Assembly: GCA_949126835.1 (NCBI GenBank)
Contig: OX421503.1
Location: 3,925,001 to 3,989,000, forward strand
From: Anisus vortex
Taxonomy: Eukaryota; Mollusca; Gastropoda; Planorbidae
DNA: 64,000 bases
Direction: 5' to 3'
Shown: one piece after another, positions 24,194 through 64,000 of the stretch
How the letters are laid out: every line of letters starts with the position of its first letter
Position numbering within the stretch: the first letter of the stretch is position 1
Translations under genes and position numbers: made by a program
The notes under the pieces: generated by a model
What the model was told of the DNA's origin: nothing
Database searches by the model: none
The model's input: the letters and a program-made list of their open reading frames with translations, nothing else

Positions 24194-27100
24194 TTAATTA
24201 AGGCAAGGTGAAGCTCCATCCTGAGGTTTCATTTTTACTACTGGATTCAAGGCCTTGTTTGTAGAATCTTCACTCTCATTATATCTATAGTAAACAAAAA
24301 AACTAGTAAAATTTAATAATAATTATATTTGTATAGAGTCACCAATAAGCATAATGTGACCTCAGAGCGGATTTAACATTTAGCAACAAACAAGCAAGAA
24401 CACTCATACAATTCTCTAGACTAAAAAAGATATACCGGGTAATGCTAATAAATACTTTAAACCTTTATAAACCTAGGACATTGTAGAATTTATCGCAAAG
24501 TATATGCATTCTATTTCTTATCCGGAGAACTTAAGCAGGCATTTATAGAAGCAGTATAAAAATATATAAAGAAATCCCAATTGAAGTCATTAAGAAGAAT
24601 TAGAATCATGAAGAAAATATTAATATAACAAAGTAATTCTTGCGATTCACTTAAAAAATTCATGAAAAACTATAACTTTTAATTCTAAGCACTTTTTTGA
24701 TACAGCTTATTACTTTTAAGACAACAAAACTTTACTACTATTTTTAGTGTATAACTTCAGACATTGTAGCATTGTAACATTGAACTCTTTAGGGTTTAGT
24801 TTAATCTAGCCTTTATTGTACCGGATAGTATTGTAGTAAAAATAAAATACCAATAAAAAATCTCGTTACAAAAAAAAATTAATTTAGTTCTAAACAACAA
24901 AATTAATAGATTTTATAAATTACGATTTTAAAAAAATAATTAATGTACCATATATTTATTAGGTAAAAAAAAAAACAGTGTAGATCTATGTCACATACTC
25001 AAAAGTTAGTAAAATAAATGATAACATTGAAATTTCAAATAGTAAGTAGATAATGTAAAGATTTTTATAAAAAAGAAATATTAACTGACTATAAACAAAC
25101 TATCAAAACAATAGTCAAATGAAAAAACATACCGAATACGTATGAATTCATATTCGTCAAGTAAATCTGTAAACGTAGCTTCATCCGCTAATGTTTTCTC
25201 TGTATTTTTTTCATAATCATCATTACACAGGACTACAGTAAAATTTTGTAACTGTGGGTAATTCGTCCCAAGGCATTTCTCCTTGAACTGAAATTAAAAT
25301 CAATGTTTTCAGGCACTTTACAAAATAGAAAATTCACAGAAATTTTTAGTGTGAATTTTCTAGGAATTTTTTTTGTTAAATCTAAAACTAAAGCCATAAA
25401 ATTATAATTTATTATATTTATTATTTGTTGAAATATAGGTGAAGTGACCCCACATAATGGTACTGAAGTAGGCAGAATAAGATACCATATTTAGCTTTTT
25501 TCTGAAATTAATTTAGATCACCTTTTTTTTTAAACTTATTACAAAAATCTAAAATTGAATAATTAGGTAAGATAGTGATAATTGTTTTTGAAACGCTTAC
25601 CAACAAATAAGTAAAAATTCACCAATTGCACTGAAGACTTTGACAATATGTCAGTACACAAGTTTATAAATTGGGATATAGTAGTTAAGTGAGAGCTGGT
25701 CTACCGAATGTTCTGCATTTCGAAATCTGATAAAGGTTAGGATTTGTTCCAGAGACTGGAGGGTGTCCTTGAGTCTACCCATCTCTCATGGGTACCTCAC
25801 ATTAGTAAGGGCAAAGTAAGGCGGGGCTGGGCATTAGGCTAGCCACACAATCCCGCAATACGCCATGATAGACACGGAAACTGGTGAACGCTGCTTCATC
25901 TGCCCTATGGACCAAATTGCTCTGACTGGTAATTTATTTTACTTTTTCAAGTTTGAAATATAGCCTATAGATCTTAAGCAAAATGTTTTCCTTAGTGATT
26001 TCCAGAAAACAACGTTTCTAAATTTGATAGTTATGATATTTGAGATTTAAAACTGTATTATTTTAGATTAAAAGATCCCTTAATACATTATTTTGTTTCT
26101 ACTTCTTTGCAAGAAATCAGCTTTGCCAACTTCAGCAACAGTTTGTGGCAGGTAATCACATATGTATTCTGATCGGGCCACTAATTAACATAAAAAAAAC
26201 TCTTTACCTCAAAAGCAGATTCCGAAGGATAAACTCGTTTGTATACATCTGTTCCGTCTGGTAAAATAACTCTCATGGTTAACCCTTCCTCATGTTCAGC
26301 TTCGCAAGTAGTATCTAAATGTAAATAGTATATATTAACATGTAGGCCCACACTTGAAAAACTAATTTGTCTGGCTTGCATTTTATCTTTAAATGCATCA
26401 CATAAAAGATTTGTGTGTTGAGTTTTAAGTAAAAAAAATATTTTTTTTGGCAGCTCTGCTTTCCTTTGTTATCTTTTTTGCTGGAATGTTTTTAAACGCA
26501 ATGCTTTTTTCACTGGTGTCACACTAGTTTGATAAACTTAAACTTTAAACTAAAAATGACACCATTTAAGACACCTTACAGGCCTTGTAATGTAAGAATT
26601 AATTGGCTAATTAATAGCCATTCACAAAAAATAACCTTTAACAATTTTTTTTCAAAATATTTATTTTTCCTACTAATATTTGAAAGATTTGACAATATTT
26701 GAAAACAAAATTCTATTTGCTGAATATAAATTTGGAATAGATTATTTTCTTTTTCAGTTTGTATGAATTTGGTTGAACTTATAGTTATAAAGGTTACTGT
26801 AATGAGTTCTAATAATAAATGTAATATTTCCTGGTGGCTATCCTGCTGGAATAGACAATGGTTTGACAAAAAAAAAGTATCTCTGTGTTCTTTTCTACTT
26901 GTAGTGAAGAGATCAAATGGATAAAATTATAATTATGTTTAAATTTATAGTTTAGGCTATACATTTAGAATTCTACCTTCAAGGTTGAAGATTTCACAAC
27001 TAGAGCTGTCACTGTTCTCATCATAGCTTGGTTCTGTATCATCATTTCTTTCAACATCAAAACTTCTATCGTCCATTCTTCTTTTCTCTGACTTCTCCAT
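24194..27100 (-). CDS. cluster gene A: 158-aa protein of an unrecognised four-exon family
   Basis: Exons on the - strand: 26977-27104 (ATG at 27098-27100), 26208-26314, 25133-25287 and 24194-24284 (TAA at 24194-24196). They join in one 159-codon frame with GT-AG introns in phases 1, 0 and 2. Residues 1-41 form an acidic, Ser/Asp/Glu-rich, probably disordered leader starting MEKSEKRRMDDRS. Residues ~50-129 form the conserved module: TMRVILPDG, then KRVYP, then AFE at the exon edge, FKEKC, NFTVVLCND, TLADEATFTDLLDEYEFI. A polar tail ends in SPCLN. The order strand, hairpin (LPDG), strand, helix (FKEKC), strand resembles a beta-grasp/ubiquitin-like or RA-type fold; this is inference from pattern only. 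An acceptor just upstream (tttttcag before 27104) implies an untranslated first exon, probably near the promoter-like block at 29399-29461. Its closest relative in the cluster is gene D. Function unknown. Confidence 0.8.
25690..25940 (+). mobile_element. SINE family 1, diverged head
   Basis: Shows GGTTAGGATTTGTTCC, GACTGGAGGGTGTCCTTGAG, TCTCATGGGTACCTCACATT, GGGCTGGGCATTAGGCTAGC and GGAAACTGGTGAACGCTGC. The tRNA-like head is degenerate. It sits in the phase-0 intron of gene A, antisense to the gene. Confidence 0.85.
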
Positions 27101-27269
27101 ACTTCTGAAAAACAGAAGAATAATCATACCATACAATATTACCTTTGAGTTTTAAATCTAGTAGCTATTGCCAGTAGACCTATAGCTTTATACAAACAAA
27201 TGTAAAAAAAAAATTTTTAAACAAAAACATTGAAGTATTTTTGTTCAATTAATTGTAATCTTATCTTAT

Positions 27270-27720
27270 ACGTTACAAACGCTCCTTCTATAAAGAAGAT
27301 TATTGCGTCCTGCGCTCATGACTGTGGTCCAAGTCTAGACTTGCATTTTTATTAATGTTTTAAATGATGTTAAGTTACTAGTGTTCCTGATTTGTTCAGG
27401 CAACCCATTCCATGCCCGAATGCCACTCGGGAAGAAAGAGTACTTATATGCATTTGTTCTCGCATAAGGGATAAGGAAAGTTTTTTTGTCTTTATGTTTA
27501 TCTGAGCTTTGCAAAAGGTTGTTATTGGATTGTATTCTAAATTATAGTTTAATGCCTTATGTATTATTACTACTTTACTCTTTTCCCTTCTGTCCTCTAG
27601 TGTTTCTAGGTTTAGTGATTTGACTAATGGTGTTACTCTTGTTAGTTGGGAATATGCACTATAAGTTATGAACCTGACACTCTTTTTTTTAATTTGTTCT
27701 AATTAATGATATAAAAAAAT
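27270..27720 (-). mobile_element. CR1-like LINE 3' segment, reverse copy
   Basis: Begins at TTACAAACGCTCCTTCTATA and runs, reversed, through the C-terminal coding region (antisense of GIRAWNGLPEQ, ALNSN and VTPLVKSLNLETLEDRR) to the RFI region at ~27665. It lies between gene A exon 1 and its putative promoter. Confidence 0.85.
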
Positions 27721-27849
27721 AGTTAATATATAACTTATTAAAAGATCTAATTGCGATAGTTTACTGGTTGCCTTAATGAAGATTCAAAAGCCAAGGCAAA
27801 TAATATCATTGGATGGGGATGTTGCTGAACTCGAACTTAAGGTCAAAGC

Positions 27850-27922
27850 TCAAAAGATGAGCGTAGGACGCAATAGTCTTCTTTATAGAAGGAGCGTCTG
27901 TAATGTATAAGATAAGATAAAT
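27850..27922 (+). mobile_element. CR1-like LINE 3' terminus, forward copy
   Basis: GATGAGCGTAGGACGCAATA then TCTTCTTTATAGAAGGAGCG and TGTATAAGATAAGATAA is the complete 3' terminus, 5'-truncated. With the reversed copy at 27270 it forms a ~60-bp inverted repeat with a ~520-bp spacer. Confidence 0.9.
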
Positions 27923-28539
27923 CTTATATCAGTATCAGTGTTAAATTAAAAGCCTACAGGGCCTACTTAGTATTTTATAATCTAGGGCTCAGATTGGTCT
28001 GTTTATATGTAGCGATGTAAGAAATTAAGAGTCCACAGTTTTGACCATCGTCTATCTAAATGGAACAATTTGATGAAGTATGTATCCTAAGTAGTCGATC
28101 AGGCTAGCGTCCACCAGAACACCTAACTAAGTAGGCATGCGTTCTATATGTTCTTTAATAGTGATATAAGAACGTGTCTTCCCACCCAAAAGAAGTGCCC
28201 ACTATTGAGAATATTTTAAGAACAAGAAGAAAAAAAATATTTCATCCATGGAAAACTTTTAACTTAAACTAAAAATGCGAAGTAATTAAATTAGGAGGCA
28301 AAATGTATGATAAATTATCATGGAATCCATGTTATTGCAGTAAAAAATCAAATAAAACCTTATACTTCATATAAAAAGTACTTTTTGAAAAAAATTAAAT
28401 AAACAACATAAAACTAAATTGCTACCTTACATTAGTTAGATCTAGGGCCTGTATGATAATATACTCATCAATTGAAGAAAACATTTGTTTAAACTACAAG
28501 AAATCCAGAAAAGATCTAGTAGAGAATATTTTATCTTGT

Positions 28540-30540: not shown

Positions 30541-30589
30541 CATATAATTAATTAAATACATAAGCCTACAGCCTGGATAGTAATATTAC

Positions 30590-30950: not shown

Positions 30951-30994
30951 CAAAAGTCAATAGGTATTGTACCGTACCAATAAAGCATATTAGC

Positions 30995-31350: not shown

Positions 31351-31364
31351 GTAGTTATTGTGCT

Positions 31365-33821: not shown

Positions 33822-36800
33822 TTAATTAGGCTTAAGTGTAATGGCTTCGTTAAGTTCACTTGTGTCAGCATCCCTGTTTACTCCAGTTCTGTTGGCAAAA
33901 AAGTAATAAAAGAAATGTTGATTTGGACCTAATAAAAATTACTTGCTATAATCATAAAAAAAAAAAGAAATTAAACAGTTTAAAAATCACCCTTTATCCA
34001 TTAATGTATTTGTGAAAACAAATATATTAAGAAAAGATGTGGATATTTTTGCACAAATCTTTAAGGAGAACTTTCATAAATGCAAAATATATAGTAAATG
34101 TTTGTCACATGAAATTGTAGCCCTCACTTCGCAAAAATCCTGGCTTTGCCCCTAGTGGTAGAGTGACCAGATCAAAGTTACCCACCAATGTTTTCAGAAC
34201 ACAATTTGATGATCGCCATAAATCCAATCAAACTAAATTTGCCAGTAATTATACTTTTACAAACAGCATAATAATATAGACTAGTAGCCTATTACTATTA
34301 AGGAAAGGTATAATCATACAATAACAAAATTCAAACCAAATAATTTATTTTAAAAAATTATCATTCATTCTCTGTCACTTTACCTTTTAACAGGCATAAT
34401 AACAAGTACAAAAAACTATAAACTATATTAAAACAGAAGTTCATCTTGATGCTAATTATTATAATAAATTTGTTAAAAGAAAGGTTAGTGAAGGGCTTGT
34501 TTTTAAATATCACTAACACTGAGACACTGTCCGTCTGGTCGAGTACACAAGACGATAGGAATGGGTCAGCGGGTCAATAGGTCAGCACAGGGAGCTGCTC
34601 AGTGTGTAAGAGACAGAGTTGGTACAAGGTCATGTCAGGGTTGGTGTTCATTAGATGGTGTTAGACAGTGTTAGTTGGAGAGATAGAAACAGATGTTGGT
34701 CTCAGTTTAGTGTATATAGTAATATAGAGAACGTGAAGTGATTTTAATGTATATTCTTGAATATGTCTACTATTTGTATAGTAAGTACATAATAAATTGC
34801 TTTCTATAAATCATTATTTGTGCGAGAGAGAGAAAGGAAGTCGGCACGTTCAACCAATTATAAAGGAATATGTCACCAATGATGTCAAAATAATAGTGGC
34901 AGTGACAAAATGCCATAGATCTATAGGCCTACTATTTATTGAATTATTTTCTTTACAATAGCATATGGAAAGATTTCAACAAAGTGACAATATCATAATA
35001 TTACCCTGCAGGAACAATGTGAATACTTTCAACTTCATCCCAGTATTGGCTGATCTCATCGCTACTTTGAAGAACTATTTGCTTGTTTAAGTAACAATGC
35101 AGTTCAACCTCATAGTTCATGTGTTGGTTATTTTTAACATGGCTTTCCAAGAACTGGTGGTGAAGAAATACAATTTATCATCTCAAATCTATTTAAGAAA
35201 TGTATTTTTATAAAACTTAATAAAAAATTAAAATTATTTCACACACTGATCTATTCACATCATCACATAGTGATGGCCAAAACAATGAAACTTATAATGA
35301 TAATGAAACCAAAGCTAATATCCTTAACACACACTTTGCATCATCTTTTTCAAATGCAGGTGACAAAGAAATCTTCATAAATTTAAACAAACTAGAAGAG
35401 ATAGGACATATAAATGTAGATGAAAAAGGCATTAAACAACTCCTAACCAACTTAAAAGCAAACAAAGCTTCTGGTCCAGATGAAATACCAGCAAGACTGC
35501 TTAAAGAACTAACCAATGAAATATCTCCAATCTTTAAAATACTTTTTCAGGCCTCTCTAAACCAGGGCAAAGTGCCCAGAGATTGGAAATTAGCTAATGT
35601 AACCCCCTTTTCAAAAAAGGAGATAAATCTGACCCCGTTAATTATAGACCTGTTTCTCTAACCAGCATAACATGTAAATTACTTGAACATATTATATATA
35701 GTAGTATAGTAAATCATCCAAACAAACTTAATGCACTGTGCCCACACCAACATGGCTTTAGGAAAAATAGATCATGTGAGACTCAATTAATAGGCCTAAT
35801 AGATGACTTGTCAAAGGGATTAGATAATAAAAACCAAATTGATGCTATATTACTAGATTTTTCAAAAGCATTTGAAAAAGTTCATCATTCTAGTCTACTA
35901 AAAAAACTTAAATATTTTGGCATCTCTGGTCCCTTAGGCTACATCAGTGGATTCAGGACTTTCTTATAGGCAGAGAACAAACAGTGATAATAAATGGCTC
36001 TAAGTCATCACCAATAACTGTAAACTCAGGAATTCCACAAGGAACTGTTCTAGGACCCCTACTATTTCTAATTTATATTAATGATCTGCCAAATTGCATC
36101 AACACAGGAACAAAAGTAAGATTATTTGCCTATGATTGCATAATTTATAGAATAATAAAGACAGGAAAAGATAGTGAACTCCTACAAAAAGACCTAGATG
36201 AACTACAAAAATGGGAATCAAACTGGAGTATGTCTTTTCACCCAGAAAAATGCCAACTAATAAGGGTATCCAAGAAAAAGAAACAAATAATAGCAAACTA
36301 CTTCATTCATGGTAAAGAACTAACTCAAACTAACAATGCTAAGTATCTAGGAGTAATAATAAATGATAAGTTATCTTGGAACCCTCATATTGATGAAGTA
36401 ATAAAAAAAATAAACAAAACTTTAGGATTCATAAAAAAGGAACTTTTACAAATGTAATAAGAACATAAAACTAAAATGCTATCTCACATTAGTTAGGCCT
36501 ATACTAGAATATGCAGCATCTGTATGGGACCCATCAACTATAGAAAACATTAAAAAATTAGAACAAATTCAAAAAAGAGCTGCAAGGTTCATAACTAGCG
36601 AATATTCCCAATTAACAAGAGTAACACCATTAGTCAAATCATTAAACCTAGAAACACTAGAAGACAGAAGGGCAAAGAGTAAAGTAGTAATAATACATAA
36701 GGCATTAAACTCTAATTTAGAAATACAACACAATAACAACCTGTTGCAAAGCTCAGATAAACATAAAGACAAAAACACTTTCCTTGTCCCTTATGCGAGA

Positions 36801-39123
36801 ACAAATGCATATAAGTACTCTTTCTTCCCGAGTGGCATTCGGGCATGGAATGGGTTGCCTGAACAAACCAGGAAAACCAGTAACTTAACATCATTTAAAA
36901 CATTAATAAAAATGCAAGACTAGACTCGGACCACGGATGAGCGTAGGACGCAATCATCTTCTTTATAGAAGGAGTGTCTGTAATGTATAAGATAAGATAG
37001 TATGTGCAAGGCTAAACCTATGTCTGGAGATAAGTATAAAATAAATCAGGAGGCTTTGATAGTTACAGAGCTCATCAATGTAATTGTATTTAAACAAAGC
37101 TTTTTTTTTTATTACATTCATTTTCGTGAAGAAAAATTATATGTTTTCATCATCATCCTGATCAAGCAGCCATTTGGGCACTTGCTCTTCGGCCTGAGGC
37201 TATGGTGAAGAAATTGCAGACTTTTTGTAGCTGTTCGTAGTTTGAATATAGAGTGTTAGAGAGATTTGGTGTTTAGGGGAGGTGGACATTTCATATGTCC
37301 TGCAGTGCCGGACAGTCAAAAAGGTGATGGGTAACTGTTTCATTTTGGTGTTTACAGAGGGGCATGCCGCTGCTTTTTCTGGTTTGATGCAGTTTAGATG
37401 TATGTGTCCTATGCGCAGACAAAAGATGGTCACTTGATCTTGTCTCTGTAGGGCATTTATTGGGTTATTATCATCTGATTTGGGCATATGTGGAAGATAC
37501 ATCTTCTGGTTGTGCCCAGTGCCCAACCATTCTTTTTTTAATGCTTGTTTTAATGATCTGGCTGTGTCAAATGATGCTGATGTGTCAGGTTGAAAGTTGG
37601 TTGAACCTTGCTTCGCTAGAGTGTCTGCTCTTATATTACCTTCTATTTTGTTGTGACTTGGGATCCACTGTAATATGAGCTTGACAGTAGAGATATCGAG
37701 GAAAGAGTTTATGTTCCAAAGTAGGGATTTGATTGGCCTTATTTTGAGGTCTTGGCACTCTGCTGCTTGTAGTACTGATAGGTAGTCAGAGAAGATTACT
37801 AAATCTTTTTTTCTGTTCTAAAATTATCTTTATTTTCTTTTGGTATTCATTTTTTTATTCTACAAGGAAATTGTTTAGAAGTCACAAATTTGGCCTAACA
37901 CTTAATCAATTTGTGACAATACATTTGTATTTTATATACAGACCTAATTTTAAATAGGCTGAATGTTTTATTGTTATCATGTGCTCAACTTAAATTTATA
38001 TAACTTAATAGTTATATTGAGAGGAACTTTTTATTAAATGTGTCACAGTATATTTACATTCAAAAAATTAAACATTTGAACATCAGTCCTTTACTTACTT
38101 CATGGGCAGTTTCATGTTCAAAGACGTTTTTAAAACTTTCTCGGCTACCTAAATAGGTCCTGATGTTTTTTGACCCTGTACTGTTTGCTTCTGAAACAGG
38201 AGTAAAAAATCATATTTGATATTGTATTCTGTATCTGAGAGTATAATATGCCTGGAAAAATTGATCTCATTTCATATATGATACTGATTTCGAATGCCAT
38301 AACTTAGTATTTAAGTTTTAAAAAAGATGGGGTATGAATGAGCTTTAAAGCAGTATCAATCAACAGGAGAACATTCTTTTCAATATTCTTATTGTTCTTA
38401 TTATTCTTATTATATTGTACTTTTCGCTTTATATGTAAAAAAAGAAATACTGGTCATGTATAAAAGTTTATGCAATTTTCCTATGGGACGTATAACCGGT
38501 AGGGGATGAAGGTTATGGAAAGATGTAAGATGTCAAGTAGGCCTACTTTCTGAATATATAGGCCTAGGTGTCCAGAAACCCTAATGATATATTATGGTAG
38601 GCTCATACTCATACGGCATACGACTATATACTTTATACTACTTGTTGTCAAAACTATAGACAAAAACACTTTCCTTATGCAAGAACAAATGCATATAAGT
38701 ACTCTTCCCCAGTGGCATTCGGGCATTGAATGGGTTGCCTAAACAAACCAGTAACTTAATATCATTTAAAACATTAATAAAATGCAAGACTAGACTCAGA
38801 CCATGGATGAGCGTAGCCGTAGGACGCAATAATCTTCTTTATAGAAGGAGCATCTGTAATGTATAAGATAAGATACCAGCCATAGGCCTATAATATAGTT
38901 TTAGCTTATTTATAGGTAGGCCTAACATTTATAAGTATCTATACTCTATATATACTATAGCCTAGACTCTAGACTAGTGACTTAGAGTTTAGACTTTAGA
39001 CTTAGAATTAGACTGGAGTCAATTTAGACCTTTATTAACTTTATTACCGTGCTCTTCTTGGGTGACTTTAGCAGTTTTGCCGTTTCGATCATGATCTCCT
39101 TGTTTATTTAGAAAGTTGCCCAT
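33822..39123 (-). CDS. cluster gene B: 127-aa protein, predicted N-myristoylated
   Basis: Exons on the - strand: 39048-39123 (ATG), 38099-38190, 35005-35153 and 33822-33888 (TAA at 33822-33824). They give one 128-codon frame with GT-AG introns in phases 1, 0 and 2, as in genes A, C and D. The N-terminus MGNFLNKQGDH matches the general myristoylation pattern (Gly2, Asn at pattern position 5, no Pro after). The module runs from NIRTYL, through VFEHETAHE at the exon edge, FLES, YEVELHCYLNKQIVL and DEISQYWDEVESI to HIVPAG. The LP[DN]G turn of genes A and D is missing. The tail TGVNRDADTSELNEAI is hydrophilic. It is a sister of gene C: exon 2 is 92 bp in both. A LINE and an RNase H fragment sit in its phase-0 intron. 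Function unknown; no signal peptide or membrane segment. Confidence 0.8.
33895..35000. other. gene B last intron; possible LTR-like block 34490-34870
   Basis: AT-rich except for a less AT-rich block at ~34490-34870 with AATAAATTGCTTTCTATAAA followed by GGAAGTCGGCACGTTCAAC. That layout is seen in solo LTRs, but I cannot define TG..CA ends or a target duplication. Confidence 0.25.
35237..36995 (+). mobile_element. CR1-like non-LTR retrotransposon, 5'-truncated and dead
   Basis: Encodes most of a reverse transcriptase: NKASGPDEIPARLLKELTNE, then after a frameshift near 35612 NYRPVSLTSITCKLLEHII, LLDFSKAF, then the open stretch 35984-36457 with SGIPQGTVLGPLLFLIYIND and YLGVIIND. A second frameshift near 36457 leads to LVRPILEYAASVWDPS and WNGLPEQTRKTSNLTSF. 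The active-site motif expected as FADD reads FAYD (~36125), so one catalytic Asp is lost. There is no RNase H. The 3' end is a small hairpin (CTTCTTTATAGAAG) followed by GTATAAGATAAGATA instead of poly(A), as in CR1/L2-type elements. It lies in gene B's phase-0 intron, antisense to the gene. Confidence 0.9.
37190..37835 (-). mobile_element. LINE fragment with RNase H domain, degenerate
   Basis: The - strand reads IFSDYLSVLQA, ILQWIPSHNKIEGNIRADTL and AKQG. These are the D-S and IPSH-x-GN-x-AD motifs of retrotransposon RNase H. Further along, with stops and frameshifts, are HICPNQ, HLNCIKPEK and a C-terminal Cys/His-like region (THHLFDC in another frame). It is a different LINE from the CR1-like family, which lacks RNase H. 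Confidence 0.75.
38640..38882 (+). mobile_element. CR1-like LINE 3' segment, forward copy
   Basis: AGACAAAAACACTTTCCTTA, then AGTGGCATTCGGGCAT, GCAAGACTAGACTCAGACCA and the 3' hairpin, ending GTATAAGATAAGATA. It is inserted in gene B's first intron. Confidence 0.9.
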
Positions 39124-42835: not shown

Positions 42836-45800
42836 CTATTTTGTATTAAGTTTAATGGCAGGATCAAGTAGAGTCTTATCAATGTCCTTGTTTTCTCCAG
42901 TTCTGTTAAAAAATATAATAAAATTGTAACAATTTCATGATTACTGATAAATTAATACAGTTTATTAAACATTTATAAATTACACTTCATCAAAAATGTA
43001 TATTTTTGTAAAAAAATATGTTAACCCTTACAGTCCCGGGCGCGTATATAGCGGAACTGAAGGCAGCATAGATAGAAGTAGGTCGGTACGGGAAGGGTTA
43101 ATGCAGATAAAACACAAATATGGCTTTTTCTTTTTGGTCAAGCTAAAATATTGTGTATAGGTAACTAATTTTTGGGTCCCAAGAATACAATGGAACTCTG
43201 TTCATGTCAAATTATCTGTCAGCTAGGTGGAGATACTGGTTTATAACCAGGTGTAAATATTTCAACCTGAGACTTTGTGAAATGAGTACCCATTTTTTTT
43301 TTCCCGAGACTCTTACTGAATAACATTTATATATATAACCTATAATGTGTATGTGGATTCTGATCACCATTAGTTAATTTAAAGATGTGTGACCTTATTG
43401 TCTCACATTTTACTTTTGCAATCTCGCTTCCTGCTTGTGTCCTCTCTAACTGAGTTTCTAGCATATCTGCATGTTATGTGGGTGACCTGGGTTTCATTCC
43501 CCAAAAGTTTACATTAATATTACTTTTTTTTAAAAAGAATTGCAGGACCTAAAGCTTTTAAAAAAGGTTTTTAGTACCAATAAGAAAAATCTAATAATAT
43601 TATATTTTAGACATGCAGGAGACAGGTGTTTTGATTCTCGCAGCCAGGGATAGTCCAAACTTTTTGTTAAATAAAAACACATGCATTTTTTAACTCTAGT
43701 ACAATATTTATTTTAAATTACTTTCCTAAAAGTTTTCAGTAAATAAGTAATAACTACATTTTTAAAAATTAATATATATTTCTGTTCGTTGTACTTTATA
43801 CAATTTTTATCTGTAGTTATAGACCTATGTACTTAATTTCCATGGGCAACGCCGGGCAATTTAGCTTGTATTATATATAAAAAAGGAACTCATCTTGGTT
43901 TTAGTTAGTAAATAAATTATTTAACGGTACAAGACTTATTTTTAAATGCCATAAACTGTTCATAAACAATTTTTTTTAACAGAAACATATGTGAATACAG
44001 TATACCCCCGCTATTCATGGGGGTTACGTTCTTTACCTCCCTGCAAATGGCGAAAAAAACTCACATATTGGATGCAGTTTTAAAACGCCTATGTATGGTA
44101 TGAGATTGTATACAGTACTAAATGCTTCCCAAACACTTTCTAAACACACTCTTACTCGTTAATACAGTTATCGAAAAGCGCATTTAGTCTCTATGACCTA
44201 CAATAACCTGGTTTAAGGGGCATTCGTTTTTAAGACGTTATGACGCTAACCCAGTATACCAGGCATGCGATGCGTTAGGGTTAAGAACAGAACCCGCTAA
44301 TATGCGGGGCCGCGAATAGGTGAGGGTATACTGTATATCAATGAAGTAAGAAGAATATCATGTTACCCAGCTGGAACAATATTTATGAATTCAACATCAT
44401 CCCAGTGGTCACTGATCTCATCCTGACTTTCAAGAACTATTTGCTTGTTCAAGTGACAATGCAGCACAACCTCAAGATACATGTGTTGGTCACCACAACA
44501 GCTTTCCAAAAACTGGTGAAGAAGATGAAATAAAATGGCCATTTCAAATTTATTTGAAAAAAGGGCCTTTATTCTATTTAAGTGATTATTTTTACACAAA
44601 CTTTAAATATTTGTTAAAATCAAATCTGTGTTTGGCTGTGGATATTTTTGTTGATGTATATCATCATCTTGAATCATTATCATGATTCATGATCCAGCAG
44701 CCATTGTTGATGTGTATAATCATGCAGGAGATATTGATATTTACAAAGTTCTCCGATGTGGTAAACAATGCTTTACATTACCTAGAAGAATTTTTTTTTC
44801 GATCTTTGTAATAAAATATTTTTTTTTCTTTTTATATTTTTAAATACCGTAAGTATAAATTGGTACAAAGAACAATTTCAAACACATCATCTTCAGACTA
44901 AGGACTGAACACAACAGGCTGAAGCAACATATGTTCCACAACCTATGCATCAGAGCAAGCAAAATTTGCCCATCTGGAACAGCTCCCGAAAATGCAGAAC
45001 ATTTACTTTAGACCTGCCCCCCCCCTGTACCACTCTACATGGTCAGCCAAATGGCCCCAGGAAACTACACTCAATGACAAACTGTATATGCAACTGACAG
45101 TCAAATCACAGTTATTACAACTATTTGACTTGTTGTCTGAATCATCCAAATCATACTTTTTGACTACAAAGAAGAAGCTACAAAGAACTTTTATTTGTAA
45201 CCAAAAGATTTTTACAAGAAATAATTATACCGGTATCCAGGGCCCTTTGCCTCAATACAGTTTTTATGTATTTTTTTATTGGCAGAACACCTTAAAAACA
45301 TATAAAGCATATTGCACAACTTAATTACATTTATTTCTTTTAAGTCAAATTAAAACATGTTTTTGTTAAATGTGCACACTTTTTTAAAAAATAACCTTTT
45401 TAAGCAAATTTATTCACATGATTGCCAAATTGCATGTTTATTAATCTACTTACTTCACGAGCAGTTTCATGTTCAAATATGTTTCTGGGCTTTACTTCAT
45501 CATTAAAGTGTGTATTGATGCATCTTGACCTTGAGTTGTGTGCCTCTGAAACATGAATTAAAAAAACTCTTTATTGATCATTTTCTTTAGTCCAGAGCCA
45601 CTATTATACAGCCCACCTTGCTGTTAGCTCACTACTCACTATATTGGCCTTCCTTATAAAACTAGGTCTAGATGATGCCATATCTCATATAATATTCTTA
45701 TTGTTTAAATTAAATAAAAGTTCAAATTAGTATTTTTATAGCCATTTAATTATAGTTATAGGGAGAATTAATTGGGAGAGAACCAATTTTAATATTTGCA

Positions 45801-47706
45801 GTAACTTAATGTTTTTTAATTTACAGAAATTTACTCTTATGGATTGAAGTAACCTACTAGCCTATATGCTATCTTAGACTATCTATATTATATATGGCTG
45901 TGACTATTCGTACACTCGGTGTACGAATAGACTACTGGTCTATCCGTACACGACATGCGCAGTGATGATTATAATTGACTCTGCCTCAAAACCAGCGCTG
46001 AATTTCTATTTGCTGTGTGTTGTATAAAGAGGGGACAGGTTCTACCCCGCTGTCAGTCGTAGTTATAATAGTTAATTTTTTAAAATTCAATTATAGTATA
46101 GCCTATCCAGTTGAACGCGATTGTTTTTTTTTTATAATTAGCAAATTACTTTTACTGTTGTTTTTTTTAAATAATAGTTTATCATTATATTTATAAATAA
46201 TTCAGACGGGTCTTTTATGTCAAAAAAAAAATATTTTTTTTTTTAGTGTTTGTTCTACAGCCTAGCCTACTAAACCAAAAAAAGTCAAGATTTAATTACC
46301 AGTTGCCTTGGTTATAGGATAAGAATTCCAAATTCCAACTATACACACAAATAGAATAGTAGGCTAATAAGGACTTAATAATATTGCTCAATACTCCACC
46401 CAAGACAATAACATACATACAACAAAACCAGTAAAATCTCTTCACAGCACTTTATTCAGTCTTGGAAACAGAACATCAAGCAATCATATATATAGCCTAC
46501 CTGTACCGGTTTATATAGGCCTTTATATAGCCTATATATATAATATATATACATAGGCTTATATATATTATCATTTATAAACAAAGGTATCTATAAGTAG
46601 GCCTATAACTATAAGGATAGGATTACATTATGATACATACAGACAAGCCAAAGAAATTAACTTAACAAAACTACAAGTTTAACCAGGACTAACAATATTA
46701 GAAAAGAGTAAATTAAAAAAAACAAAAACATTCACGTTCAACTGGATATACTAAAAATTGAATTTAAAAAAAAAAAACTGACAGTGGCTGACGGCTGGGT
46801 AGAACCTCTTGCCTCATATAACAGCTCACCGTTCTAACCACTAGGCCAGGAATACTTAGTTAAAAACAGCAGTCTATATATTTAAGATGTTTAAATATTT
46901 TTTAAATGCGCAAAAGAAATGGGCAGTCGAATTTAATTATCAGTGCGCATGCCGTGTACAAATAGCTATCCGTACATGGGTGTACAAATAGACACTTCCA
47001 ATATCTCCAATCTTTAAAATACTTTTTCAGGCCTCTCTAAACCAGGGCAAAGTGCCTGAAGATTGGAAATTAGCTAATGTAACCCCCTTTTCAAAAAAGG
47101 AGATAAATCTGACCCCGGAAATTACAGACCTGTTTCCCTAACAAGCATAACATGTAAAATACTTGAACATATAATATATAGTAGTAGGCCTATAGTAAAT
47201 CATCTAGACAAACTTAATGCACTGTGCCCACACCAACATGGCTTAAGGAAAAATAGATCATGTGAGACTCAATTAATAGGCTTAATAGACGACTTGTCTA
47301 AAGGATTAGATAATAACAACCAAATATATCAACCAATATATATCTATTCTATAATATTAATCTATCATTTGATTGTGTTTATAAAAAACTTAATAACAAT
47401 TTTCAAATTGGCTAATTTCGTAATAGTAATTTGGTAGGGCTAGCTATTTATATTTAAAACCATATAGTAGGCTACCATCATATTCATATCATAGTCATAC
47501 TCATTGAGTCATTGTGTTTAGCCTTATTTGATTATTTGACTTAATAAATTGCCTTAATTATAATTCCATAATTTCGTGTCTAATGAGTCATGACGACTAA
47601 TGAAGACTGTCTAGGAGTCACTAGGTCCCTAGGACGTCCAAGTCTTACCATTCTCTTCTTTGCCAGTTCGAACATGATCTCCTGGTTTATTTAGCCAGTT
47701 GCCCAT
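42836..47706 (-). CDS. cluster gene C: 120-aa protein, predicted N-myristoylated
   Basis: Exons on the - strand: 47649-47706 (ATG at 47704-47706), 45454-45545, 44367-44512 and 42836-42902 (TAG at 42836-42838). They form one 121-codon frame with intron phases 1, 0 and 2. The N-terminus MGNWLNKPGDHVRTGKEEN parallels gene B's MGNFLNKQGDH and fits the myristoylation pattern. The module has CINTHF, IFEHETARE at the exon edge, FLESCC, LEVVLHCHLNKQIVL, DEISDHWDDVEFINIVPAG, then the tail TGENKDIDKTLLDPAIKL. The three-residue shorter third exon and the missing LP[DN]G are shared or derived relative to A and D. The B and C modules are much closer to each other than to A or D, pointing to a recent duplication. 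Function unknown. Confidence 0.8.
43025..43097. mobile_element. 73-bp piggyBac-type MITE flanked by TTAA
   Basis: TTAA at 43021-43024 and 43098-43101. Ends CCCTTACAGTCCCGGGCGCG and AGGTCGGTACGGGAAGGG match the ends of the 612-bp element at 13937-14548. It is the minimal version of that family and lies in gene C's last intron. Confidence 0.75.
43328..43876 (+). mobile_element. candidate non-autonomous Helitron with tRNA-like segment
   Basis: It starts at TATATATATAACC with GTGTATGTGGATTC. A segment GGGTGACCTGGGTTTCATTC resembles a tRNA T-arm/B box. It ends in the small palindrome region GGGCAACGCCGGGCAATTTA followed by GCTTGT. A near-terminal hairpin and CTAG-like end is typical of Helitrons, here degenerate. 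It is homologous to 49779-50045. Confidence 0.45.
43998..44333. mobile_element. 336-bp mariner/Tigger-type MITE with TA duplication
   Basis: The left end is CAGTATACCCCCGCTATTC and the right end GAATAGGTGAGGGTATACTG is its imperfect reverse complement. TA is present on both sides (43996-43997, 44334-44335). The termini resemble pogo/Tigger elements. There is no coding capacity. It sits 33 bp from gene C exon 3, in the last intron. Confidence 0.75.
44520..45450. other. gene C phase-0 intron
   Basis: Contains an ORF-like stretch at 44992-45324 with no recognisable motif. I see no repeat relation to the rest of the window. Confidence 0.4.
45899..46996. mobile_element. element with long imperfect TIRs in gene C intron 1
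   Basis: The left end is TTCGTACACTCGGTGTACGA, then TCTATCCGTACACGACATGC and GCAGTGATGATTATAATTGA. The right end reads, reversed, TGTCTATTTGTACACCCATG, TACGGATAGC, GTACACGGCATGCGCACTGA. The TIR is ~70 bp with internal GTACA/TGTAC sub-palindromes. There is no transposase and the superfamily is unknown. A LINE fragment begins directly at its right edge. Confidence 0.65.
46997..47325 (+). mobile_element. CR1-like LINE fragment (RT fingers/palm)
   Basis: ATATCTCCAATCTTTAAAAT to ATTAGATAATAACAACCAAA is >95% identical to 35519-35835, including the same TTTTCAAAAAAGG frameshift site. That shared frameshift implies both copies came from a source already carrying it. Confidence 0.9.
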
Positions 47707-55974: not shown

Positions 55975-58900
55975 TTAGTTCTGAGGATTCTGTCTTACAT
56001 GAACTGCATCCCGTAGATCCTTATAGTCAGATGTAGCCCTTAAAATATAAAAAAAGTGACAAGAAAAATTATTGTTATGAAACGGAGATTCATAATAATT
56101 ACCTTTATTAAATTCTAGCATTAATAATTGCGAATCGCGAATCTAACGTGGAGAGAATAAAAGTTAATAAATATCAACACCAGAAGAACGCTATTTTAAG
56201 AATCTTCTAGAAGCATTTTTATTCGGATTTGAAAAGTCTCGTTAATAATCGATAAGAACGATACAACGTCATTTACATTAAGTAATTTACAAATATATGC
56301 TTAAAACAATTACGATACGCCCAAACTGTTAGACTATAAAAAGCAGAAACCGCGTTCAATCGACCCTTTTTGGCCTATTGCCTTTTCCAATACAGTTAGG
56401 CGTATGTCGCTGTCTGTTAATAAGTCACTTCGTGCATGTGCTCTGAACTTGCCTTGTTTGCTCAACTACCTCAACCTAATAATATAAATTCTAATGATCA
56501 GGTTTGAGATGGGTTTTCTTAAATATTTCAATTTATTATTTGGACAAGGATTCCATACATAAACATATTGAAATGCATGTTAAATGGATCTAAGCCATAC
56601 TCTTGTTTTATACCAATTATGGAACTGTAGCCTATTGTACAAATATGTGAATATCAGGAATTGAAGAACAATTCAGTACTTTCAGTATTAAAGTTTTAAA
56701 GTATTTACAACTGAAATCTTATTTCAATTATTTTCCTTGTGGACTATTTTACATGTGTAGTCTTAAGAACTATAATTAATGATAGTAATCCTATTATATA
56801 CAAGACAAGTAAAATATACAACCAACTTGAGCTGATATAAATATATTTACCATGAAACAAGATGAATTACACTTATACACTATTGTTGCATAACAGTTTT
56901 CAAGAGGATATACAACCTTGGGCATACTCTAGACTATAACAACCATAATAACAACAACAACAGTAATTCAACTCATACTAAGTTCATGAGATAAACATCA
57001 ACTACTTACTAATTCTGTCATAAGAGGAACTGTTAATAATTATATATTTGAATATTGAAACAACAGCACAATTGAGCTGAAATTCATTTTTATTAAGAGG
57101 GGCTCGGAGTCAAAATACAAGAAATACCTTCTTAACACAGATTAGTATGTCATCTAAAATAAATATAATGGACAATATAATGAACTGACTTGATCAGGTA
57201 TAAATAAATACATTATAACTCGGCGGACATGAAAGTGTTGGATGACCACTAGTGTTTGCTGAAACAACATCTCATAGCTGATTAGGTAAGCCCATTACTT
57301 ACTTCGTGGATGGTCAGTGGTGTTGAATACACGGACAGTAATTACGAGAACGAAATGACTGTTGGTTTCTGTTCGAAGGAATTGTGTCACGTAATATTAT
57401 TTACAAAATGAATTAAATAGGGTTGCAGTGGAGACCCAGGCGCCCAGTTATCTAGTGTCAGGGTGTTTAGATTGCCATTCCGAAGGTCTCTGGTTCCAAA
57501 CTGACTTCAATATGTCAATTGTCCGGTTCATAGGAAAAGTTATTGGTCATTTTGGAAATCAATAGGTCTATAACTATTAAAGATTCAACTGATGGCACAA
57601 TAACATAATTCTTCTTAAAATCATTATCATGGCGTGTAACAAGCCAGCTTTAGAAGATATTTAAAACTCATCTCAGTGTTGAGTTGCCAAAATGACCCAC
57701 AGGTCGTTGATTTTTTCTTTGAATATTGACCATAAGTTCTTTAACTCTAAAAAAAAAACTACAGTCTATTTTGTCTGAAAATATTATTTACAATACATAA
57801 TTTTAAGCAGTTAAAGGAATGAAAAAATACTGGCATTGTGCCGAACATATTGTTTGTCCATCCAGTCGATGAGACCCTTCTAATGTCATTTAGGGAGGGT
57901 GTGAGTCTGGAGAAGGCTGATGAAACCCCATCCGAGTCCGCAAATGTCAGTTACAGTGGGTACATGGAGGTATGTATGTGCCAGGACATACAATCGACTT
58001 GTGTCAAAATGTGAACTCTTTTTCACTAGCCCCTTATATAAACAATGTATGTAATATAATATACTTTACTTGGGCTTCCTTAGTTAGTAATTACTTCAGA
58101 TAAGGGGTGATAAAGCAATCATGATTACAACTTCAAAAGAAATTAACTGAGATGTTTAAATATTTTCCAAGATCAACAATTTTTTGGGGCAGTTCTTTCC
58201 CTTTTTGTACATTTTCACACTTATTAAAAAAAACATGAAAGATTCACATAAGTATTGACAAGTCTTAATGAGGCGTGACCTTTTCAAATGGAAGAGATCG
58301 CGAACATCCGGTTCTATTTTTAAATTAGTAAACAAAAAAGCATGCTTTTCCTGGTGTTTGACAATTGATTTCAACCTCGACTGCCAGTTCTAGTCTTTTA
58401 GAAATATACAAAGGATACAAGGTTAGTTATGAGGAATCCGTTTTTTAACATCAAAAGTGAGTAGACGATAATCAATACTTAAAGTGTTAGTCGAGTTAGG
58501 TTAAATTTAGCTTTGTTTATAAAATAAATTAGTCAAGAGAAGTGATATTTCAGTTCAAAATGAAATTTCAATTCTTATTTTTATATATTTTTTATTTATT
58601 TCTATTCGCTGTAATTAATTTCTATTCTTATTCTTATTCAAGTTCTGAAATAATTTCAATTCTTATTCTTATTCAAGTTCTGAAATAATTTCAATTCTTA
58701 TTCTTATTCAAGTTCTCAAATATTTTCAATGGTTATTTTCATAATCGAGGGTCGAACAGTCAAACTTCACGAATTTGAATATTCATAACAACTTTATTTC
58801 AATAAAACACTTTATAGCTATCTTATAGATAGCTGCTGCTATCCAGTATCAACTATCAAGTTCTACATTTTTAAAATCTACATTATCTACATAAGAAATT

Positions 58901-61900
58901 AAAAATGAGTCAGCTGTTCATCAGACACAATGTTCCAACAGTTTGAGTTTTGAGTTATCAGTGATAAAATAAGAACAAGCTTATCACAGTTGAGCAATGT
59001 TCTTGTTTAATTTCAAAAAGACCCTCATTTCAAGGGATTTTTGCATTCTATTTCGCCTCCCGGTGGTTAACATTCCACACAGAGAAAAGATTCATTCTAC
59101 GTATGCCTGCAAAGCAGGTGCCGTTAACAAATCCTCAGCGATTTTTGACAGTTTGCTGTAAGTTGCTTTTCTGTTGTGCCAGAATACCAGAGAATCCGTT
59201 GTCGTTGTACAAGTATTCCTGTCTGTAGTGTCTGTTATATACCGATTCAACTGACATTGTACAGTGTCCTAACTTGGTGATGACGTTGTGGCATTTTCAA
59301 CAAGCTAAGTACTTAACACTTAAAAAACTAACCAGGAAGAAGGAACTTTGGATCAAATGTTTTAATCATGTGTCTGAATGACGGCTTGTCAACCACTGTG
59401 ACCGGATAGCAGGTGTCTATCAACATGTCCATCACACTGGACAAACGCTGTTGATACTCCTGCGACTCTGTTGACCAGGATACGATTTTACGTTGAACGT
59501 AATCAGCCAATGTCTGAGTCGCATTTTTGCAGACCATCGTTTTCTTTGGTTTTGTCTTTAATGATCTTGCCTCGGTTGCTTTAACATACTGCTTATACTC
59601 CTACTTATGTAATCTGCGGAGATGCGACAGCATATTTGTAGTGTTTTTACCCGCCAACAAAGCACCACACTTGCTATTAGTCTTTACAATAACAACTTTA
59701 CATTTCGCTTTCCCTTCCTGTTCCATATATGTAAAGTAATCCCACACCAGACTCTCTTTCTTTCGTCCAGCTAATATCCTTGATAATGAACTCATTGTCC
59801 TCAGAAAAAAACTTTACTCGTCCAAAATAAATCACAAATATTAATCGAAAAAATAAACCGGCGATCATGAAGAAATGCGATGCTTTAGCCCTTTACTACA
59901 ATACAAAATACGGATTTTGACAGAAATGGCGCAAATGGCGGAACATATTCCACGCGATAATCGTTCAATAATAATTTTCGTTATTATTACTATTCTATTC
60001 ATGAAAATTAATTTTTATTTCTATTCTATTACCGTTCTCAAAATAATTTTTGTTCTTATTTTCGTTATCGTTAACAAATTTCATATAATTTTCGTTCTTA
60101 TTCTTATTCTCGTTAACGTAAATATCACTGGTCAAGAGTTGCGCCCTTGGTTATTAAAAAAAACACAATGCATATATTTATTTTAAAAAAAGGAAAATTC
60201 TTTTGCATCAAGCAATTAGTTTGGTATTTTAAATAGGTGATTCTTCAAATCTGACATTCACAATCCATCGTTTTCTTTTGGCAACATCTTTTGGAAATAA
60301 AATTAAATCTCCTACATCTTTTTGTACAACCATATATATCTATGGTAGGCTACAATCAGTAACGCAACACACAGCCATTTTTTAAAAATAAATGTTCAAA
60401 TGGGAAAGGAAATGTTTTTTCTTTGACCTTTTATGCATGCATAATCGTTAAGACTTGTCAATTTAGAAACCACAAATAAATAGTTATCTTATAGCTTTTG
60501 GTCAGTTTGTTGAACTTTCATTTGATTAGCTACGAAAACTTCACTTTAAAAAAAATATCCTTTTTTTTTTACCTACCCTTTTGGCCTAAGCAAGATGCGA
60601 TGTGAATTTTTTAGCTTCTCTTTCAAATCTTCATTGTCGCTTAGCACCATTTCTTCAAGGTTATGGCCAATAAGAACAACTTCAATGGTTTCAGGACGAG
60701 CGTCTTGATTTTTCATACATTCTAGTTTGAACTAAAAGATATAGAAATGGAAGAAAAGGGAATTTAGCTATTTTTAGAATTTAGCTATTATTAGAATTTA
60801 GCTATTATTAGAATTTAGCTATTATGTGATGTTTTTTTCCAAGTATATATTATCTTTTAAAAAGCAAGATTAGCTAGATTATATTTTGAACTAGCCAAGG
60901 CATTTTCTAAAGGAGGCAATTCTCTTCATATTCTTAAGTTGAGCCAGATGATTGTGTGCTTTTAGTGGCCTATGTTATGTTAAATAGGACATACTGTGAG
61001 GAATTCAAATCATAATATGAACTACTACCGCATGTCTTATAGCTAAGATAAATATGGTTGTAACTTCATTGTATTTCAAGTTAAGACCCCTACTAAGCTA
61101 ACCTTTTCATTCAGGGTTCTACTCTAAAATCATTTTAAAATTCACAAACTTTTCCTGAACTTTGCAAAAAATCACAAAAAATAAATAAATTTATAACGGC
61201 TGTTGTAACGTGTGCATAATAAAGGTAAAGTATCCAGTTTCTGGTAAGGGCGGGTTTTATAGGTAATCCAAATATAAAAAAATTAGTAGGTGTTTGTTAA
61301 CATAGTTCTTACTCTACATACATGTTAAAATTCACAAACTTTTCACAAAATTCGCCAAACAATTTTTATCTGCATGTGTGATATTTCTTAATGTTTTCTG
61401 TTAAGAAAAAAAACATTTTGAGGTTGTTTTTAAGTACATATTAAAGAAAACAACAAGATGTGAGTTTTCTTAATGACTTCTCAAACTAACTAAAATGGTA
61501 ATGCACTTTAAAAAAAATATTTCAAGAATTTTTCCTTTTTTTTTGTCTATTTGAGTGAAATTCACAAAATATCCCAAACCTTGCTCAGTTTTTTCCACAC
61601 TTTCAACAACTTTTCCAAATCAAATGAATTTTCTCATTGCCCCTAGTGCAGGGGTGCCATTCACAAATCAGTGAACTCTGAAATTCTTTTCTAAAAGTTA
61701 TTGAAACCTGAAACCTTATGCTTTCCAAAATTTTACAAACCCTGGAATGTACCACAACAGAGCGCTAACTTGCTCATTGCAGTTGAGGTTAATCAATGCT
61801 CATAACAATTTGTTTAACTTTTACAACATACTGCCTTTCAAAGTTTTGGAATTTATACAATTCCTTGGTTGAGCATCAAAGGAAAATAATGTTGAGGCTT

Positions 61901-64000
61901 TTACCACATTACACATTTACAGAGAGAGGAAGGTAGATAGTGAGAGAGAGAGGGGAGAGAGCTGGCAAGCAGGGCCTGTATTTAGGATTGTGGGGCCCTA
62001 TTCCCAAATTTATGTGGGGGCCCCTCGTGGCCTTGCCCCAGCCTTCCACATACCTCAGAAAAATGCCCTTAATTCATGTTACATTCTGTGAAATCATAAA
62101 TAAATTAAATGTTGCACTTAGCTTGGTTGGACTGGAGCGCTCAAAATTGTAGGGGAATAAATTTAATTTTACATTTTCAACAAAGAATGGGGAAGTCGCA
62201 AAAAAAATTCTTTATAGGAAGTGTGGGGGGCCCTGTTCTAATGGAACATGCCTAAATATGCAACTGCTGGCAGGGTGTATCCTAAATAATCTCTAATTGA
62301 AACAGCCACAACAATCACATCTGACAAATGCCCTTCCTATACTATACTAAATGTTTTCTTTAATGTGAAATACTAAATGCTTGAACTCTTTACAATCAAG
62401 TCGAGACAATATGTCTATAATTTAAACAAGAAATGAGAATTGGATTTAAAAAAAACAACAAAAAGAATAAAAATTTCCACATACTTCACCAGCAGTTTGC
62501 GCAGAATAAACTCGAAATAGCTCATCCCTGCCATTAGGGAGAGTCACAGTACATTCCTTGCCCTTTTCAGGATGGGCCTCTAAATGAAAGATAGATTTAT
62601 TACATATATTTCTGTTATTCATATTATAACTTTGTATTAAGATTCTTAATCACATAGGTATACGTTAAAACCTTATTTATATATAATATAGGCCCCACAG
62701 GTAGGCCCCACAGGTAGGCCTGTAATACTTGAGTGCTCTATGCTCTAGCATAATATTTTGGCAGATATTATAATTTTGATCAATGTGTATGTCAATGTGA
62801 TCATAAGGAGCTTTAGACATTCCTTAATAAATAGTAGATCTATATGTAAAGTATGGGGCACGCTGGCCGAGCGGAAGCACATTTGACTGTCGATCTGAAG
62901 GGTCTGGGTTCGAATCCTGGTTAAGGCTAGGATTTGTTCCCGGGACTGGAGGGTTCCCTGAGTCTACCCAGCTCTGATGGGTACCTGACATTAGTTAAGG
63001 TAAAGTAAAGGCGGCTGGGCATTGTGCTGGCCACACATCCCCTCGTATGCCATGGCCACAGAAACTGGCGAACGCTGTTTCACCGGCTTTATGATCAACT
63101 TGGTCCGAAGGGTACTTTAATTACTATATGTAAAGTGAGTCTCCTAGGTTCTATTTAGTCATTTAGAACATGTATTTAGAGAGTAGCAAGAGCATACAAC
63201 AAAATCTTTTATACATGGAAATGTGTAGTGCCTGCCCATGGCCTCATATACCAGCATTTTTTGCCAGCATATTCTTAAGCAATCAAAGGAAATTAACCTT
63301 TCTGGAACAGGTTAATAGTAGCCTGTTGGACCATGTTTGCAGCAGTCAGCATGAGGATGAACCATTGTGTCCTTCCTGCCTACCTCTTCAAAACTTTGAG
63401 AAACTTAATCTCAGTAACACTATATGTGGGCCATATGTATTAGATCTTTGGGTGGTTTACCAATGACTTACTCACACTTAGATATTCTGGGTCCAACTTT
63501 GACTAAAGTGCTATAGATACAAGTTTAAAAAGGCACTGTAAAACAGTTGCCAAGCAATACACAATCTTGTCCGAGGTGTTTACCTAAGAAACTAACAGGC
63601 TTTTAGTAAATCCTTAAATGTCATTAGGAGCTTATTATATATTATATTTTTTATTATCAATCCAACATTCATATGGTAATGCAAATGTCCATGTATTATG
63701 TAGCCTACACAACATCATATTATCAGCATTTTTGTTAAATATTTGGCTATTTGAAAATAAAACTTATATTAATTAACATCAACTGTCAGTTTTCAGTATA
63801 ATGTATATAGATAAATATTTTAACAGCAGCTTTTTTAGCATGATTAAAAAACTAATTAAACTCAGTGATATTTAAAAATTTTAGAATGCCAATAATTTTT
63901 TATACTAATTAAGTGACTTAATATATAGTATAGCAATTATTATGTTACTGTATTTTTACCTGGCCTTATATCAATTGGTTGGGTAGACCTACTTTCAGTT
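55975..64000 (-). CDS. cluster gene D, 5' end beyond right edge
   Basis: Exons on the - strand: the 3' part of exon 1 at 63960-64000 (runs off the window), 62485-62579, 60577-60731 and 55975-56038 (TAA at 55975-55977). The phases are 1, 0 and 2 as in A-C. The visible protein is 117 aa: leader end TESRSTQPIDIRP, then EAHPEKGKE, CTVTLPNGRDELFRVY, TAGE at the exon edge, FKLEC, EVVLIGHNLEEMVLSD, LKNSHRILLRPKG and the tail ATSDYKDLRDAVHVRQ. It keeps the LPNG turn and RVY of gene A (LPDG, RVY), and its third exon is 155 bp, as in A. Its intron 3 holds a hAT element and intron 1 a SINE. Function unknown; same fold guess as for gene A. Confidence 0.78.
56050..58530. other. gene D last intron, proximal part
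   Basis: AT-rich intron. No coding region is supported. A moderately GC-rich block at 57830-58010 shows no match elsewhere in the window. Confidence 0.45.
58540..60130 (-). mobile_element. hAT transposon, internally deleted, with 8-bp target duplication
   Basis: GTCAAGAG lies immediately outside both ends (58532-58539 and 60131-60138). The TIRs are AAGTGATATTT on the left and CAGTGATATTT (read inward from the right). Inside, on the - strand, is a BED-type finger (VWDYFTYMEQEGKAKCKVVI, KCGALLAGKNTTNMLSHLRR, LHK; 59601-59795). Then, after a stop or frame break, comes a transposase piece ending FRHMIKTFDPKFLLPG (59328-59537). The catalytic core and the C-terminal hAT dimerisation region are absent. 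Subterminal TTCTTATTCTTATTC repeats lie at both sides (58646-58735, 60075-60110). Confidence 0.88.
59328..59795 (-). pseudogene. hAT transposase remnant (BED finger plus start of core)
   Basis: The first part (59601-59795) has the BED pattern: aromatic-rich start, Cys-Gly, then His-x4-His. The second part (59328-59537) has CKNATQTLADYVQ and PVTVVDKPSFRHMIKTFDP, matching the ZBED/hAT N-terminal core (normally VE..GFR..L..L.P.Y..P.R). The two are separated by a stop, and nothing of the DDE core follows. Confidence 0.85.
60756..60825. repeat. 18-bp tandem repeat, ~4 copies
   Basis: AATTTAGCTATTATTAG repeated four times, 25 bp upstream (gene sense) of the gene D third exon acceptor. Confidence 0.9.
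60840..61960. other. gene D phase-0 intron
   Basis: AT-rich with several AAATTCACAAACTTTTC-like direct repeats (61138, 61327, 61560). No gene. A GA-rich stretch is at 61920-61960. Confidence 0.5.
61970..62266 (-). mobile_element. 297-bp hAT-type MITE with 8-bp target duplication
   Basis: The left end is CAGGGCCTGTATTTAGGATT. The right end, read inward, is CAGTTGCATATTTAGGCATG. CTGGCAAG (61962-61969) and CTGGCAGG (62267-62274) flank it, 7 of 8 matching. The body is the reverse of 39816-40131. Confidence 0.88.
62853..63123 (+). mobile_element. full-length tRNA-derived SINE family 1 with 13-bp target duplication
   Basis: A-box region CACGCTGGCCGAGCGGAAGC and B box GGGTTCGAATCCTGG are intact, so the head is tRNA-like (Leu/Ser-type D-arm). 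The body has GGGTACCTGACATTAGTTA, GGCGGCTGGGCATTGTGCTG and CATGGCCACAGAAACTGGCG. The direct repeat CTATATGTAAAGT flanks it (62840-62852, 63124-63136). This is the best preserved copy and defines the family length (~271 bp). It lies in gene D intron 1. Confidence 0.92.
63140..63955. other. gene D intron 1, distal part
   Basis: AT-rich. A 98-codon ORF at 63170-63466 has no recognised motif and no splice support. Nothing else is seen. Confidence 0.45.

Follow-up and report, generated by a model that had tools for sequence, protein, structure and literature searches.

The 64,000-nucleotide stretch of the Anisus vortex genome analyzed here (C12:3925001-3989000, hereafter the window) contains four paralogous genes on the minus strand, named A to D, each with four coding exons and introns in phases 1-0-2. 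The initial annotation, which proposed four tandem paralogs, was right that the family is real but not about its size, since the family comprises at least six copies: two more, E and F, were found with a profile of exon 3 for which only A-D had been used. Each gene encodes a single module that is predicted to adopt a ubiquitin-like (beta-grasp) fold, and most copies begin with a signal of the N-myristoylation type. The best reading of the sequences is that the family is lineage-restricted and fast-evolving, and we tentatively suggest that its members are membrane-tethered adaptors or decoys, with a Ras/Rap-type GTPase as the first candidate partner.

As judged from sequence, the strongest support for the family comes from the copies E and F, which lie outside the sample from which the profile was built. 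In 30 kb of new sequence, the exon-3 profile of A-D retrieved E at an E-value of 4.9e-9 and F at 6.1e-9. Both copies are located upstream of A-D, 12-33 kb past the end of the window, within the 190 kb around the window that were also examined (254 kb in all). Copy E consists of exon 2 (C12:4001100-4001006) and exon 3 (C12:4000835-4000684), with the same phases as in A-D. None of 47 candidates for its exon 1 has a myristoylation-type start and none of 27 candidates for its exon 4 was convincing. Because these exons were not found, E may be a fragment, or else it has a very different head and tail. Copy F has a four-exon model that closes with 125 residues and phases 1-0-2. The third exon (C12:4018817-4018672) is the strong match, while exon 2 (C12:4020657-4020563) has a profile E-value of only 2.6 and was included because its position, phases and sequence fit. 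The first exon (C12:4021892-4021826), which starts with MGNTGSKKTKK, rests on place, phase and motif, and exon 4 (C12:4013463-4013394), the second of 61 profile candidates (E 0.19; the first had 0.031), was selected by visual inspection because of its acceptor and tail. Exon 2 is 95 bases long in D, E and F. With profiles listed to an E-value of 3, no more copies of comparable score were found past F (up to 117 kb) or on the opposite side (40 kb), with the exception of one unreadable run of N.

The support from within the window is uneven. In pairwise alignments compared with 500 shuffles, the z-score was 47.6 for B-C, 14.0 for A-D and 4.8-7.7 for the remaining four pairs; for the weakest pair, A-B, the best of the 500 shuffles (59) was above the real score (47). 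Exon profiles searched against the window matched their own source copies and nothing else below an E-value of 0.2, a test that is partly circular. In 12 leave-one-out tests, the left-out exon was strongly retrieved in three (exon 2 of B, and exon 3 of B and C) and weakly in five (E 0.11-1.2), where exon 3 barely found A and D; two of these five, exon 3 of D and exon 4 of A, were equalled or outranked by a chance match. The four other left-out exons (exon 2 of A and D, exon 4 of B and D) were not among the matches listed.

The exon positions of A-D are given in window numbering, all on the minus strand. The spliced frames of A, B and C, with GT/AG introns, close exactly as initially claimed, with 158, 127 and 120 residues, respectively. 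Gene A contains exon 1 at 26977..27100, which encodes an acidic head (MEKSEK...), exon 2 at 26208..26314, which covers beta1, beta2 and the start of alpha1 (...MRVILPDG...), exon 3 at 25133..25287, which covers the end of alpha1, beta3, beta4, alpha2 and beta5, and exon 4 at 24194..24284 with the C-terminal tail and stop. Its start had been placed at 27104, but the ATG is at 27100. An acceptor-like CAG ends 4 bases 5' of this ATG, so an additional 5' exon is possible, and none of 18 upstream candidates has a myristoylation-type start. The spliced model of B has exons at 39048..39123, 38099..38190, 35005..35153 and 33822..33888, and that of C at 47649..47706, 45454..45545, 44367..44512 and 42836..42902, in both cases ending with a tail and stop in exon 4. 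Gene D was expected to reach beyond position 64000, and its exon 1 indeed runs to 64032. This exon (63960-64032, of which 63960..64000 is in the window; C12:3989032-3988960) was picked among candidates by its start motif and donor, so that the start codon (64032-64030) is placed 32 bases outside the window. Exons 2 (62485..62579; ...CTVTLPNG...), 3 (60577..60731) and 4 (55975..56038; tail ...LRDAVHVRQNPQN, stop) are inside, and the resulting model has 128 residues and phases 1-0-2. The Glu|Phe pair that had been pointed out at the middle intron is present in all four genes in the window, while E has Gln|Ile and F has Glu|Thr at this site.

The closest pair, B and C, has 70 of 120 aligned residues identical. 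The NG86 method gives 0.285 nonsynonymous (dN) and 0.524 synonymous (dS) substitutions per site, a ratio of 0.54, and dN equalled or exceeded dS in 16 of 1000 bootstraps. By exon, the ratio is 0.36 for exon 3, 0.67 for exons 1 and 2, and 0.75 for exon 4. The core is conserved, and the drift is in the first hairpin and the tail. Purifying selection is likely, but it is not supported by every method, because YN00 and LWL85 give 0.69 and 0.95. The comparison that the initial annotation called for thus yields 0.54 to 0.95 depending on the method, with no ratio above 1. For the other pairs, NG86 returned no dS, as expected at saturation.

The heads of B (MGNFLNK), C (MGNWLNK), D (MGLSNSK) and F follow the pattern MGxxx[NS]K, an N-myristoylation-type signal, so that of the five copies for which a start is proposed, four begin in this way. 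These four also agree with MG-{EDRKHPFYW}-x-x-[STAGCN]-{P}, which we take to be the pattern for N-myristoylation, and A does not. The first exons of D and F were initially listed through a filter that favors starts with MG or an acidic run. As a control, 508 kb of strand were scanned for N-myristoylation-type starts that have K/R as residue 7 and are combined with a phase-1 donor scoring 6 or more out of 9. The scan gave five sites, namely C, D and F and two elsewhere; the start of B fits the pattern, and its donor scores 5, below the threshold. The first 20 residues of F have a net charge of +6, and its head has, as predicted from sequence, the same myristoyl-plus-basic arrangement that is known from Src. 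The tails in exon 4 share the pattern [AV]-[IV]-x-[LMV]-[KRN]: LNEAITLKPN in B, LDPAIKLNTK in C, LNPVVKMKP and LRDAVHVRQN in the two other genes in the window, and MVNAIRVKRR in F, where the exon was chosen partly for the pattern. None of the five models with a tail (A, B, C, D and F) has the C-terminal Gly-Gly that follows the last strand in ubiquitin-like modifiers; they extend 20-29 residues past this strand and end with N or K.

The two halves of the module were folded separately with AlphaFold2 (AF2). Exon 2 alone (A first, with D, B and C) gave a mean predicted local distance difference test (pLDDT) score of 73.7, with 90 and 82 for the blocks 11-20 and 21-30, and is modeled as strand-strand-helix (strands 11-16 and 22-27, helix 29-34). 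Exon 3 alone (D first, with A, C and B) gave a mean of 81.6 and is modeled as helix-strand-strand-helix-strand (helix 2-5, strands 16-22 and 27-30, helix 33-40, strand 43-50). Taken together, the two halves have the predicted order of a ubiquitin-like fold, and it follows from the two orders that the middle intron falls inside the first helix of this fold. The beta-beta-alpha-beta-beta-alpha-beta order of the Raf-like Ras-binding domain (RBD) is compatible with the halves as folded apart. The structure matches to the exon-3 model are led by PB1, Ras-association/Ras-binding, FERM and ubiquitin domains, with PB1 domains at the head of the lists. Both the element order and these beta-grasp matches support the beta-grasp or ubiquitin-like fold that was guessed from the window sequence.

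Searches for homologs returned little. A search with the A-D alignment against 5.8 billion proteins scored 653 candidates, none of them with an E-value of 1 or lower, and for D alone (exons 2-4) no candidate had three shared 5-residue words. This search depends on such shared words, and distant relatives would be missed. The same database contains animal proteins, as is evident from 2,664 matches to the PP2A scaffold among 7,987 scored, so close relatives seem to be absent from it. There were no sequence matches in PDB for the A-D profile, D, A (from exon 2) or B, none in NCBIfam for a hand-made consensus and A, and none in PHROGs for the hand-made consensus; B matched one weak PHROGs family of unknown function (E 0.025). 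Seven pattern matches in viral contigs gave no confirmed case, and Rfam and tRNA searches of the window were blank. That no family had been recognized initially agrees with Pfam, where no match is above the curated cut-off, and Pfam lists no transposon family for any of A-F at an E-value up to 10.

To compare the modules with known domains, we scored a six-member profile (A-F) against domain seeds, with 50 shuffles each. The score against the RBD was 24.5 (shuffles 9.2 +/- 2.1), against the first RBD of RGS14 27.7 and against Raf alone 18.8, and none of the shuffles reached any of these values. Byr2 (15.2) and ubiquitin (12.65) were each reached by one shuffle, PB1 (11.6) by 4, DIX (12.1) by 5, CIDE-N (10.75) by 10 and UBX (9.9) by 13. 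On the scale of accepted pairs, Raf scores 21.1 against the second RBD of RGS14 and 33.9 against the first. The sequence comparison thus favors Ras-binding domains of the Raf/RGS14 type over ubiquitin, UBX, PB1, CIDE-N and DIX. The RBD score varied from 19.5 to 29.8 as each of four subsets was dropped, values that come without shuffles. In a four-member test, the signal came from A and D, with none from B and C alone, and without D the score (14.4) was just above the best of 25 shuffles (14.2). For the modules of D, E and F, the only families that Pfam lists are Ras-binding ones (RBD at 0.034; Ras_bdg_2 at 0.036 and 0.0064). Four hand-made consensus sequences also matched PF02196, at 1.8e-4 to 2.7e-3; we do not rely on these matches, since two machine-made consensus sequences had none and since, for three of nine controls made by shuffling or reversal, the best match was to an unrelated family, at 0.064-0.078.

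Three observations weigh against assigning the family to the RBDs. None of the six copies, with E and F searched as modules only, passes the Pfam gathering cut-off for an RBD family, the best scores being 14.5 bits against 25.7 for RBD (D) and 17.3 against 27 for Ras_bdg_2 (F). The residues that we take to be the Ras contacts of Raf-1 are mostly missing from the six modules (R59 in two, K84 in one, R67 and R89 in none), and all six modules are acidic. The family is for these reasons not filed as an RBD. However, the missing contacts and the acidity still leave room for Ras binding, because the first RBD of RGS14, which does bind Ras, is similar: in the same alignment it keeps only R89 of the four contacts, as the second RBD keeps only R67, and its seed has a net charge of -3.

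Starting from the genes, phases, paralogy, start motif and predicted fold halves obtained by computation, we consider it possible that the genes form a lineage-restricted family of membrane-tethered single beta-grasp adaptors or decoys. The head of B, C, D and F would be lipidated and anchor the module to the membrane's inner face, while A, with its acidic head, would be a soluble version. The single module, split over exons 2 and 3, would bind its partner alone, with no catalytic domain, and would serve either as an adaptor in its own right or as a decoy in competition with longer effector proteins. The first candidate for the partner would be a Ras/Rap-type GTPase. A more specific version, in which free-standing N-myristoylated domains of the Ras-effector type, encoded by separate tandem genes and not produced by splicing, are membrane competitors that tune several Ras-family GTPases and each copy diverges towards a different one of these, appears unlikely.

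Roughly level with the Ras-type partner is the possibility that, with the same genes and the same tethered fold, the module binds a partner other than a Ras-type GTPase, such as a PB1-like or ubiquitin-type one, or is a structural adaptor. The acidity of the modules, the missing Raf contacts and the rank of PB1 in the exon-3 structure lists all point in this direction. A PB1-like partner is opposed by the profile score, and by the lack in all six modules of [DE]-x-[DE]-G-D, which we take to be the acidic motif of type I PB1 domains. That the array is an arms-race expansion of lineage-specific immune or reproductive proteins is rather improbable: tandem duplication, fast divergence, the lack of detectable homologs and the B-C ratios (0.54 overall, 0.67 in exon 2, and higher overall by the two other methods) speak for it, but no ratio exceeds 1 and the myristoylation-type start indicates the cytosolic face. 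Such a role can be combined with either a Ras or a non-Ras partner. Decaying or never-functional copies, or chance open frames, are the least credible explanation, for which one may cite the low scores in 9 of the 12 leave-one-out tests and the missing exons 1 and 4 of E, but which conflicts with the identical phases in which A, B and C, and also the D and F models, close, with the B-C differences that favor synonymous sites, and with the out-of-sample matches to E and F at about 5e-9.

The small, diverging tandem family was described as the neighbor of a housekeeping gene, and this gene is PPP2R1, which encodes the 65 kDa scaffold of PP2A (1-17361, plus strand). Its exons are matched one after another by human PPP2R1A, from residue 9 to 583; the best relative in the database has 89% identity, and named matches include bivalves (Pinctada, 86%). 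A minisatellite at 17428-17628 (unit 66 bases) directly follows the last PP2A exon match, and two others are located at 15494-15945 (19 bases) and 20932-21231 (58 bases). Pieces of transposons sit in introns of B, C and D. By eye, the second intron of B contains a reverse transcriptase piece of the non-LTR type (35224-36920, plus strand) and an RNase H-like retroelement piece (...WIPSHNKIEGNIRADTLAK...; 37203-37817, minus strand), and the first intron of C contains another reverse transcriptase piece of the non-LTR type (47078-47434, plus strand). The last intron of D contains a BED zinc finger (PF02892, E 9.9e-8; 59604-59813, minus strand) that adjoins transposase-like frames, together probably a hAT element.

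The predicted fold of the module is ordinary, the architecture is unusual, and the family is matched to no curated family. Small multi-exon genes of this sort are missed by scans for open reading frames, and this family was missed by the homology searches as well. If the partner is of the Ras type, stand-alone effector decoys tethered to the membrane have evolved as a gene family in an animal lineage, and the sole comparable case that we know of is a splice form, DA-Raf. If it is not, the family still illustrates neatly how much a ubiquitin-like fold can drift when the exon-intron structure is fixed and, in most copies, the anchor motif as well. Among known systems, PB1 domains, as in p62 and NBR1, are the nearest solved structures to the exon-3 half, but the modules differ from them in motif and in a profile score that shuffles reach. 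The first RBD of RGS14 (R1) and the Raf RBD (PF02196) share the predicted ubiquitin-like order, provide the best profile match and have LP[DN] at the first turn, as do A, D, E and F; the modules differ in standing outside any larger protein, in scoring below the Pfam cut-off, in their acidity and mostly missing contacts, and in the myristoylation-type head of four copies. RGS14 R1 is described as binding H-Ras and Rap2, and RGS14 as inhibiting ERK (PMC8268017). The tandem ubiquitin-like (UBL) domains of FAM111A/B are likewise said to resemble the Ras-binding domain of RGS14, but these proteins are described with two UBLs and a protease, and for the two marine invertebrate FAM111A sequences in the tree of that paper no UBLs are reported in its account of them (PMC9798293). 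DA-Raf is described as a kinase-less splice form of A-Raf that binds the membrane and Ras and blocks Raf/ERK, and it contains a Cys-rich domain as well as basic residues that bind lipid (PMC12540644). If the proposed function holds, the family described here would resemble it as a kinase-less Ras-binding module at the plasma membrane, but with separate genes in place of a splice form, a lipid-type anchor and an acidic module.
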